Assembly (NCBI GenBank): GCA_021324635.1
Contig: JAJPIS010000037.1
Location: 1 to 48,597, forward strand
Reading direction: 5' to 3'
DNA from: Gemmatimonadota bacterium
GTDB taxonomy: Bacteria; Gemmatimonadota; Gemmatimonadetes; Gemmatimonadales; Gemmatimonadaceae
Length of the DNA stretch: 48,597 nt
In this document: positions 14,935 through 21,594 of the stretch, piece by piece
Numbering within the stretch: position 1 is the stretch's first letter
How the letters are laid out: every line of letters starts with the position of its first letter
The notes under the pieces: generated by a model
Databases searched by the model: none
What the model saw: the letters and a program-made list of their open reading frames with translations, nothing else
What the model was told of the DNA's origin: nothing
Translations under genes and position numbers: made by a program

Positions 14935-14950
14935 GAGCGCCCGCGGCCGA

Positions 14951-15090
14951 ACGCACCTGCCCGGACGCACCTGCCCGGACGCACATGCCCGGACGCACGC
15001 GCCCGGACGCACATGCCCGGATGCACATGCCCGGACGCACATGCCCGGACGCACATGCCCGGACGCACATGCCCGGACGCACATGCCCGG
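14951..15090 (+). repeat. Minisatellite: ten tandem copies of ACGCACATGCCCGG
   Basis: Ten contiguous 14-bp units from 14951. Six match the consensus exactly. Units 1 and 2 have CCTG, unit 4 has CGCG and unit 6 has ATGC. Because 14 is not a multiple of 3, all frames read as a 14-residue repeat, so the long minus-strand frames crossing it are artefacts. It is intergenic, between the kinase and the Gly-rich exported protein, upstream of the latter's promoter. Confidence 0.95.
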
Positions 15091-15166
15091 AGCCGCGTGG
15101 CCGGACCGGTCGAGGGCATGACCGGGGGCTGACCCTCGCCTCTGTCACATCGGCGGGACGGTGGGG

Positions 15167-18517: not shown

Positions 18518-19840
18518 CTACCGCCGGGCGCCGGACGCGGCCGCGATGAACGACCCGGTCACGACCTCGTCGCCGGGGCCCAGGTGGCCCGCGAGCACGC
18601 CGGCGAGCTGCGTGAACGCGTGGTCGGTGATGCCGAGTGCGATGCGGACCGGCTCGACAGTGTCATCCGGGTGGCGCTTCCAGACGACCGCCTCCTCACT
18701 GGGTCGCGCGCGCCGGACCGCCGGCTCGTCGATCCCATACTTCTCGTAGAGCGCGCGGATCGCCTCGGCGGGGAGCGCCGGGCGGTAGCGGAGCGCGCTG
18801 TTGGGCACCTTCACCGCATCCTGGACGCTGGCGACGGGAATCGTGACGTAGGCGGTCATTCCCGGAAAGAGCTTCAACGCCGGATTCGCGAAATCGATGA
18901 TCGCGTCGTACGTGACGACATTCTGCACCGTGGTCGCGTTCATCCGGATCTGGCTGACCACGCCGTGGAAGACATCCTGCGGGAACGCATCCACCTTGAA
19001 CGTCACGCCCTGGCCGACGCGGATCCGGCCGACATCCGACTCGTCCGCCTTGGCGTAGAGCTGCATCTTCGTCAGATCCTGTGCGATCGTGAAGATCGTC
19101 GGGGCCTGGAGCGACGCGGCGACCGTCTGGCCGACATCCACGTTGCGGGCGACGACGATCCCGTCGATCGGCGACCGGATCACGGTGTAGTCGAGGTTGG
19201 TGCGCGCGACGGTCACGGCCGCCGCCTTGAGGTCGACCTGGGCCCGCGCCACCGCGACCGCCGCCCGGGCCTCGCCGACGGTGGCGACCGCGATGTCGTA
19301 ACTGGCCTTGGAGGCGACCAGCGCCTGCTGGGTCACGTAGTCGCGCTTGACGAGCGGCGCGTTCCGGTCGTAGTCATCCCGCGCCTGGACGAGCGTCGCC
19401 TCGGCCTTCGCGAGGTTGGCCTCCGCGGCCGTCAGGTTGGCCTTCGCGCTCGCGAGGTCCGCGGTCGCCTGCTCGAGCGCGGCCCGAAAGAGTGCCGGGT
19501 CGATGAGCGCGATGACGTCGCCGCGATGGACGCGGGAGTTGAAGTCGGCGTGGAGCTTGGCGATCTGCCCCGAGACCTGCGACCCGACCTGCACGGTGGT
19601 CACGGCGTTGACGGTGCCGGTCGCCTCGACGACATCGTGGATCGCCCCGCGGTCGAGCCGACTGGTGAAGTACTGCGGATGCCCGCCGCGATGGACGCGG
19701 AAAGCGGCGAAGAGGGCGACGGCGAGGAGCACGCCGGCGGCGATCGTCCAGCGTGCCCGCACCGACGTGCCGGCAACCCAGCGGTGGGTTCGGTCTCCGA
19801 AGGAGTCGCTCACCCGCTCAGGCATGGGCGCCACGCTCAC
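18518..19840 (-). CDS. MacA-like periplasmic adaptor (HlyD family)
   Basis: 440 residues. One N-terminal TM helix (about 30-50: RWTIAAGVLLAVALFAAF) is followed by lipoyl half motif TVQVGSQVSGQIAKLHADFN, a long coiled-coil hairpin rich in Ala/Glu (FRAALEQATADLASAKANLT..), the second half motif VIRSPIDGIVVARNVDVGQTV, and beta-barrel and membrane-proximal domains. In MacAB pumps this protein joins the permease to TolC and stimulates the ATPase. Its ATG overlaps the permease stop by 4 bp (ATGA). A later ATG (MPERVSDSF) is a possible start. Confidence 0.92.
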   Translation of the reverse strand: MSVAPMPERVSDSFGDRTHRWVAGTSVRARWTIAAGVLLAVALFAAFRVHRGGHPQYFTSRLDRGAIHDVVEATGTVNAVTTVQVGSQVSGQIAKLHADFNSRVHRGDVIALIDPALFRAALEQATADLASAKANLTAAEANLAKAEATLVQARDDYDRNAPLVKRDYVTQQALVASKASYDIAVATVGEARAAVAVARAQVDLKAAAVTVARTNLDYTVIRSPIDGIVVARNVDVGQTVAASLQAPTIFTIAQDLTKMQLYAKADESDVGRIRVGQGVTFKVDAFPQDVFHGVVSQIRMNATTVQNVVTYDAIIDFANPALKLFPGMTAYVTIPVASVQDAVKVPNSALRYRPALPAEAIRALYEKYGIDEPAVRRARPSEEAVVWKRHPDDTVEPVRIALGITDHAFTQLAGVLAGHLGPGDEVVTGSFIAAASGARR

Positions 19841-21054
19841 TCATACCGCAGGGCCTCGATCGGATCGAGGCGCGCGGCCTTGCGTGCCGGATAGTAGCCG
19901 AAGAACACGCCGACGGCGACGGAGAAGAGCGCCGCGAGCACGACCGCTTCGACCGACAACTGCATCTGCCAGCCGAGCGTCCGCCCGCCGACGCCGGTCC
20001 CGACGACGCCAAGGACCACCCCGGCCGCGCCGCCGACGAGGCTCAGCATCACCGACTCGCCGAGGAATTGCAGTTGGATGGCCTCCTCGGTCGCGCCGAC
20101 CGCCACCCGCACGCCGATCTCGCGCGTCCGCTCCGTGACCGAGACGAGCATCACGTTCATGATGCCGATGCCCCCGACGACGAGCGAGATCGAGGCGATC
20201 GCGACGAGCAGGATCGCGAGGGTGTGGCTGGCCTCGAGCTGCGCCTGGATGATGTCCTCGGGGTTCCGGATGTTGAAATCGTCCTCCTCGTCCGGGCGCA
20301 GGTGGTGCCGGTCGCGCAGGAGCGCGGCCGCCTGTTGCCCGGCCGGCTTGACCGCGGTCGGGGAGATGGCCGAGCAGAGGATATCGTCGAGCCAGGAGAT
20401 GCCGCTGATCTTCTTCTGAGCGGTCGTGTAAGGAAGGATGACCGTGTCATCCTGGTCCTGACCGGAGACGGAGAGCCCCTTGGGTCGAAGCGTGGCGACC
20501 ACCTGACAGGGGAGGTCCCTGACCCGGATCACCTTGCCGATCGGGCTCTCGGCGCCGAAGAGCTGATCGCGGACGGTGCGGCCGATCACGCAGACGTCGG
20601 CCGCGCGGTCGACATCATCCGATGAGAAGACCGCGCCCTCGTCGACCGTCCAGCGCTTGATGTCGAAGAACTCCGGGGTCACACCGCGGTAGCCGGTATA
20701 CCAGTTCTGGTTGCCGTAGACGATCTGGATCGAGCCGTCGACATTGGGCGAGGCGGCCTTGATGAGTGGGATCTGGCTGCGGATGGCGATCGCGTCCGCC
20801 ATCGTGAGCGACTTGGTCCCGTGCGTGCCCGTGCGGACGCCGTTGACGGCGCGCCCGCCGGCCTCGATCCAGACGAAGTTGTCGCCCAGGTTGTTGAGCT
20901 GCGCCTCGACCCGTGCCTGCCCGGCCTTCCCGATCGCAACGACGCAGATGACGGCCGCGATCCCGATCGTGATCCCGAGGACCGTCAGGAGGCTCCGCAG
21001 CTTGTTTCGCAGCAGCGCCCAGACGGACGACCCGAGCAGCGCCACATGATTCAT
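19837..21054 (-). CDS. MacB-like ABC transporter permease
   Basis: 405 residues from ATG 21054 (MNHVALLGSSVWALLRNKLRS). An upstream in-frame ATG is ignored because it reads into the control region. TM1 (LLTVLGITIGIAAVICVVAIG) is followed by a large periplasmic domain (MacB_PCD), then three TM helices at the C-terminus of the FtsX domain (ending YYPARKAARLDPIEALRYE, the family's closing motif). The ATPase is encoded separately, two genes downstream. A TAGCTT hexamer 7 nt before the ATG and no ribosome-binding site suggest a leaderless transcript. A dyad (21077-21096) lies just upstream. Substrate unknown: peptide, lipid or macrolide-like. Confidence 0.92.
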   Translation of the reverse strand: MNHVALLGSSVWALLRNKLRSLLTVLGITIGIAAVICVVAIGKAGQARVEAQLNNLGDNFVWIEAGGRAVNGVRTGTHGTKSLTMADAIAIRSQIPLIKAASPNVDGSIQIVYGNQNWYTGYRGVTPEFFDIKRWTVDEGAVFSSDDVDRAADVCVIGRTVRDQLFGAESPIGKVIRVRDLPCQVVATLRPKGLSVSGQDQDDTVILPYTTAQKKISGISWLDDILCSAISPTAVKPAGQQAAALLRDRHHLRPDEEDDFNIRNPEDIIQAQLEASHTLAILLVAIASISLVVGGIGIMNVMLVSVTERTREIGVRVAVGATEEAIQLQFLGESVMLSLVGGAAGVVLGVVGTGVGGRTLGWQMQLSVEAVVLAALFSVAVGVFFGYYPARKAARLDPIEALRYE

Positions 21055-21167: not shown

Positions 21168-21198
21168 TTGAACCTCAAGCTACTTGAAGGATTACCCT
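21168..21198 (+). promoter_or_regulatory. MerR-superfamily (SoxR/CueR-like) promoter with 19-bp spacer
   Basis: -35 TTGAAC (21168-21173), a 19-bp spacer and -10 TACCCT (21193-21198). The spacer carries the interrupted dyad TCAAG-CTA-CTTGA. The overlong spacer with a dyad between the hexamers is the hallmark of MerR-family activators. The CCTCAAG...CTTGA(A)GG core strongly recalls the SoxR box. It drives the small Cys-Cys protein at 21244. No MerR-family gene is present in this window. Confidence 0.65.
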
Positions 21199-21243
21199 CC
21201 GACCAGGCGCGAGGACGCACCCATCCACGAGAGGAAGCCGACA

Positions 21244-21594
21244 ATGCCGGACCACGCATCCACACCGATCGCGTGCACGCTCCAATCCGCGGACTATGCG
21301 ACGCGGCTGGCCTGGATCGCAGCGCTCATGGGCGATGCACTCGTCGAGTGTACGCGGCGCGACCTGACGCTCGGCCTCCGCTTTGCGCCGGAGGCGCGGG
21401 ACCGCGTCCGCGAGTTGGTCGCCCGCGAGCGGGCCTGCTGCGGGTTCCTGACGTTCGACCTCCGGGCGGAGCCGGACGCCATCCGCCTCATGATCACGGT
21501 GCCCGAGGCGGCCCGCGAGGCGGCCGACGCCTTGCTCGAGCAGTTCGTCCCGTCCGGCCGGCCGGGCGCCCGACCCACCCCTGCCACGCGCTAG
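21244..21594 (+). CDS. Small Cys-Cys protein under a MerR-type promoter
   Basis: 116 residues from ATG 21244, preceded by GAGAGGA; an in-frame ATG at 21184 lies inside the promoter and is rejected. A compact alpha/beta protein with N-terminal TPIACTLQSADYATRLAWI, then LGLRFAPEARDRVRELVARE, the vicinal pair ERACCGFLTF (Cys65, Cys66), then LMITVPEAAREAADALL. Other Cys are at 11 and 36. I recall similar short proteins beside, or fused to, MerR-type metal or redox regulators, which fits the promoter. Function unknown; the vicinal cysteines suggest soft-metal or redox-thiol binding. Cytosolic, with no signal peptide. Confidence 0.75.
   Translation: MPDHASTPIACTLQSADYATRLAWIAALMGDALVECTRRDLTLGLRFAPEARDRVRELVARERACCGFLTFDLRAEPDAIRLMITVPEAAREAADALLEQFVPSGRPGARPTPATR

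Follow-up and report, generated by a model that had tools for sequence, protein, structure and literature searches.

Metalloid sensing is classically ArsR territory. ArsD, an arsenic metallochaperone, is small, cytosolic and encoded in ars clusters, and has a vicinal cysteine pair plus a third cysteine. SoxR sites are even-centred dyads. At CueR/CadR sites the dyad is odd, and 7 bp separate its centre from the 3' end of the -35 box (PMC5045206). Here we examined a 48.6-kb window of a soil bacterium, the whole stretch of DNA analysed, in which a site of the latter kind precedes a gene for a three-cysteine protein (Table 1). Like the CadR/PbrR and CueR/HmrR regulons, this site has a 19-bp spacer and an odd dyad centred 7 bp from the -35 box (PMC1526738, PMC5045206). 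Relatives of the locus share with these regulons a divergent regulator with sensor cysteines at the CadR/PbrR positions. Where these regulons have a P-type ATPase as target, this locus has a small soluble thiol protein, and the regulator is missing here. The half-site, (Y)TCAAG, also differs from the published HmrR CCTTCCAG (PMC1526738, PMC5045206).

Table 1. Coordinates of features in the window
Feature	Position	Strand	Remarks
MerR-type promoter (predicted)	21168..21198	+	direct reading; 51.7 bits against matrix of other-genome operators
-35 box TTGAAC	21168..21173	+	direct reading
19-bp spacer	21174..21192	+	direct reading
-10 box TACCCT	21193..21198	+	direct reading
Operator dyad TCAAG-CTA-CTTGA	21175..21187	+	same dyad between MerR and gene in most relatives
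Half-site TCAAG	21175..21179	+	direct reading
Half-site CTTGA	21183..21187	+	direct reading
Three-cysteine protein gene, 116 aa	21244..21594 (stop included)	+	ATG at 21244
MacB-type permease gene	19837..21054	-	PF12704, PF02687
14-bp tandem repeat CCGGACGCACATGC	14947..15091		10.4 copies, 93% match; GC-rich short repeats on both sides

The earlier note had proposed that a MerR-superfamily promoter drives a thiol protein, and its coordinates are confirmed. We scored the site with a matrix of 65 distinct operators from other genomes, leaving the window out (training range 32.5-58.5 bits). The window operator reached 51.7 bits. None of 4e7 random positions scored as high (best, 12.7 bits), and the runner-up in the window, excluding the reverse reading of the same site, scored -4.5 bits. 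The pattern TTGAACN{15,22}TAYCCT had one match in the window and 0 in 100 shuffles. The 19-bp spacer falls in the 19-20-bp range of MerR-activated promoters of the CueR/CadR-PbrR class. The dyad has an odd, 3-nt centre, and seven bases separate its central base (21181) from the end of the -35 box (21173), which is the geometry of the CueR/CadR class. The operator YTCAAGTTACTTGA, characteristic of the three-cysteine-protein module, lies within TTGNNN-19-TANNNT. Its distance to the ATG matches that in relatives, and a Shine-Dalgarno-like stretch, AGAGGAAG, lies directly 5' of this ATG. Judged by sequence, positions 21168-21198 are a real, intact MerR-type operator. We rejected the odd 3-nt centre as an argument against a MerR protein, as HmrR, CueR and CadR sites are odd too. 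Of the SoxR/CueR-type dyad originally suggested, the odd-centred CueR/CadR half stands and the even-centred SoxR half is not supported.

The 116-aa protein carries C65-C66 in its ERACCGF motif, as the earlier note had it; a third cysteine, C11, is equally invariant. Across 58 aligned sequences, including the window protein and one from an archaeon, C11, E62, C65, C66 and F68 do not vary. The protein matches no Pfam or NCBIfam family; the three-cysteine family, for which neither database has a model, is undescribed but widespread. In general terms it resembles ArsD, which is also small, cytosolic, found in ars clusters and built on a vicinal cysteine pair plus a third cysteine. Unlike ArsD, it is not recognised by the ArsD models of Pfam or NCBIfam at E values up to 1, and no ArsA partner was seen. 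It also resembles the mercury accessory proteins MerT, MerF and MerB, which are cysteine-based, under MerR control and occasionally its neighbours, yet it matches no Mer protein model in Pfam or NCBIfam. A confident structure model of the window protein (pLDDT 84.6) retrieved only ArgR C-domain-like and other common alpha/beta arrangements, from which we draw no inference (best match, Z 8.6, rmsd 2.6 over 78 residues, 12% identity; best Foldseek E 0.015). The family profile found nothing significant among the sequences of solved structures. A C-terminal CxC tail, present in many relatives, is absent from the window protein. The operator preserves nearly every consensus position, although the identity of the protein is down to about 55%.

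A pattern scan of GTDB representatives confirmed 170 relatives, 80 of which were fetched. They occur in Alphaproteobacteria, Burkholderiales, the Lysobacter group and mycobacteria. Plasmid-borne copies are known from Rhizobium, Paracoccus, Cupriavidus, Sphingomonas and others. More distant copies, also on plasmids, come from Firmicutes (Cytobacillus), Bacteroidota (Adhaeribacter) and a halophilic archaeon (Halorussus). Within the order of the window organism, 11 of 151 genomes have a family member. Searches of the openly accessible literature on the operator string, GDCCVxC, YnfA-arsenic, CadR-PbrR-like and ars-operon themes returned no account of such a module.

A MerR regulator is encoded within 1.2 kb of the gene in 85 of 98 relatives, mostly in divergent orientation. 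These regulators belong to a single clade, here called clade A, which is related to CadR, PbrR and CueR. The intergenic DNA of relatives contains CTTGAACYTCAAGTTACTTGAAG-N3-TANNNT or a close variant. The operator is present in about 77 of 89 non-redundant relatives and the cysteine pair in all aligned ones; homologues without both features, which would have refuted the earlier note, are thus not the rule. Clade-A regulators score best against the CueR and CadR-PbrR models (about 1.5e-27, yet below the cut-offs) and far less well against SoxR (4e-8), and their best solved relatives are CadR and PbrR. They carry C86 (85/85), C121 (76/85), C125 (84/85) and C133 (84/85), three of which align with CadR/PbrR cysteines. 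They differ from CadR in the extra Cys125 and in the recognition helix, where 76 of 85 have Pro in place of the Glu of CadR. As far as sequence comparison shows, merR and the three-cysteine gene are neighbours sharing one operator with a 19-bp spacer in most relatives.

Some distant members of the family are arranged differently. In Gemmatimonadota loci L018 (about 1000-1760) and L020 (814-1713), they are divergent from a second, SoxR-like MerR type and have even-centred operators. One target family thus has two different MerR partners, and because the operator is even where the regulator is SoxR-like, dyad parity follows the regulator. On a Halorussus plasmid (L109, 3477-4351), a gene for a MerB-like organomercurial lyase shares 4 bases with that of a distant family member, and a bile-acid:sodium-symporter-type gene and an HTH gene adjoin this pair. 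In L034, L043, L094 and about 20 other loci, a gene beside that of the three-cysteine protein encodes a small membrane protein whose first helix contains CxxCC or CAACC; in L028, L047, L076, L085 and L104 the two proteins are fused. This membrane partner has a weak match to MerT (E 0.026).

In relatives, the modules form part of resistance islands for arsenic, mercury and other soft metals. At least one metal or thiol marker is present in 70 of 89 non-redundant loci, which fits the soft-metal role first suggested. Arsenic or ACR3-like genes occur in 31 of these loci and mercury genes in 10 (MerT/MerP in 6, MerA in 5 and MerB in 2). An ACR3-like carrier is encoded in 19, thioredoxin and CcdA in 15 each, and ArsH, ArsC, GDCCVxC and a P-type ATPase in 10 each. 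Among Gemmatimonadota, the gene comes last in an arsR-arsM-arsC-metallophosphoesterase-gene series (L144), is followed by ACR3 and a metallophosphoesterase (L143), or sits beside YnfA with arsR-ACR3-arsC about 5 kb away (L142). YnfA/UPF0060 is the commonest neighbour overall (37/89; for example, L025 3099-3440), and an unrecognised metal(loid) link of this uncharacterised SMR-like family is suggested. The neighbours indicate mercury as well as arsenic, and we infer the ligand: arsenic-type ligands are favoured, with mercury the chief rival, because of these neighbour genes and because three invariant cysteines in a small protein would suit a three-coordinate soft ion.

The genome of the window organism (4.09 Mb, 127 contigs) is 96.8% complete. 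MerR-family genes of the two types tested are absent from the 48.6-kb window contig, as the earlier note had stated for the gene's surroundings. Its proposal of a distant sensor is not supported, as no regulator of the right clade was found in the assembled genome. Of the three MerR-fold genes in the genome, none is in the window contig and none belongs to clade A, the best match to which (35%) is a SoxR-like gene on contig C119. Where relatives have their divergent merR, the window has the MacB-type permease gene. On the evidence of the assembled sequence, the locus is a MerR-type target orphaned from its sensor.

The C119 gene (L002, 1399-1960; about 63.49-64.05 kb of C119) is the best SoxR candidate in a genome in which no SoxR with CX2CXCX5C was found. 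It encodes CXCX5C without SoxR's first cysteine and scores 76.2 bits against the SoxR model (cut-off 116.9). Its operator, with an even 4-nt centre, occurs just twice in the genome, before the gene itself and before the gene that follows. The latter, behind the second of these promoters, is DinB-like and putatively secreted. L002 is a closed regulon and does not fit the window operator. We rejected SoxR and L002 as sensors of the window site on dyad parity and on this two-operator regulon.

We also asked where the window copy came from. In a rough tree built on few columns, the window protein falls among copies from Alphaproteobacteria, including Bradyrhizobium and Dongia (97/89), apart from the Gemmatimonadota copies. 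Among 395 genomes of the phylum, that of the window organism is the only one with the operator; a 1-mismatch occurrence in another (L141) lies inside a long coding sequence and was dismissed as chance. A horizontal origin of gene and operator, from a donor of alphaproteobacterial type, is probable. The GC content of the gene equals that of its neighbours, so any transfer was not recent but old enough for amelioration. A binning error is unlikely, because the gene is inside the contig and close relatives of the gene after it occur in the genus. The merR side may have been lost, or may lie within the few per cent of sequence missing from the assembly.

We favour, with a probability of about 0.6, an orphaned MerR-type target as the reading of this locus. 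Its product would be a cytosolic trithiol protein that binds soft metal(loid)s, with As(III)-type ligands most likely. In the proposed mechanism, the sensor MerR would use its conserved cysteines to bind a soft metal(loid), and the metal-bound sensor would untwist the over-long spacer to switch the gene on. C11, C65 and C66 would jointly hold a soft three-coordinate ion, for which As(III) or an organoarsenical is the likeliest candidate and Hg(II) or Sb(III) a possible one. The protein may buffer this ion or, like a metallochaperone, hand it to an efflux or reduction partner, for which the ACR3-like carrier, YnfA, thioredoxin/CcdA and the MerT-like membrane protein are candidates. The window organism has no acr3 in its genome, so a usual partner is absent. 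Without an activator, the window promoter would be weak and hardly inducible. The chaperone role and this present silence, like the ligand and the horizontal origin, are what we infer.

The same module could instead serve Hg(II) or an organomercurial, the protein being a cytosolic mercury carrier fed by the MerT-like membrane partner. Homologues of MerA, MerT, MerP or MerB near 10 of 89 relatives speak for this, as do merA-merP-merT adjoining the Janthinobacterium copy, the MerB-like gene overlapping the Halorussus copy and the weak MerT match of the membrane partner. Arsenic-type genes are commoner, however, and all three closer Gemmatimonadota relatives are in or near ars clusters; we consider a mercury ligand rather unlikely. 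SoxR or redox control of an oxidant-buffering protein, with MacAB as co-target, is far less probable still. The half-site TCAAG resembles the SoxR box, and the spacer length is similar, but dyad parity, offset and regulator clade all differ: the centre is odd (3 nt, not 4) and 7 bp from the -35 box, and clade-A regulators side with CueR/CadR-PbrR over SoxR. The genome's one SoxR-like regulator has different operators, so the earlier note's SoxR-type control is not supported. Nor is its tentative inclusion of the MacAB-like pump in the same response: no MacA or MacB homologue is near any of the 89 relatives, and we rejected MacAB as a part or co-target of the module.

Two readings concern the state of the window copy itself, and we hold each to be quite improbable. 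The gene might still respond to a MerR-type protein of this organism, encoded either in the few per cent missing from the assembly (a clade-A MerR) or on C119 (the SoxR-like regulator). A completeness of 96.8% in 127 contigs leaves room for the former, and an operator kept intact while the protein fell to about 55% identity suggests selection until lately. Against this, the assembled genome lacks a clade-A MerR, and the two even-centred operators of the C119 regulator are both local. Alternatively, the locus might be a relic, its promoter dead and its gene passively decaying after loss of the sensor and the C-terminal cysteine tail. The sensor not found, the missing tail and the lack of acr3 are consistent with decay, whereas the open frame, the invariant residues and the operator are all intact, and third-position GC is that of the neighbours.

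What the earlier note described is one part of a larger module. A doubtful extension is that relatives represent an unnamed, widespread arsenical-handling module, in which a MerR clade with four conserved cysteines and a recognition-helix Pro would sense trivalent arsenicals. It would induce arsenic chaperones of a new class, cytosolic and with three thiols, and the window would then hold a stranded chaperone gene with its operator. The nearly invariant operator and its regulator partner provide a direct experimental handle on the family's ligand, and the window offers a natural case of a MerR target that appears stranded from its sensor.
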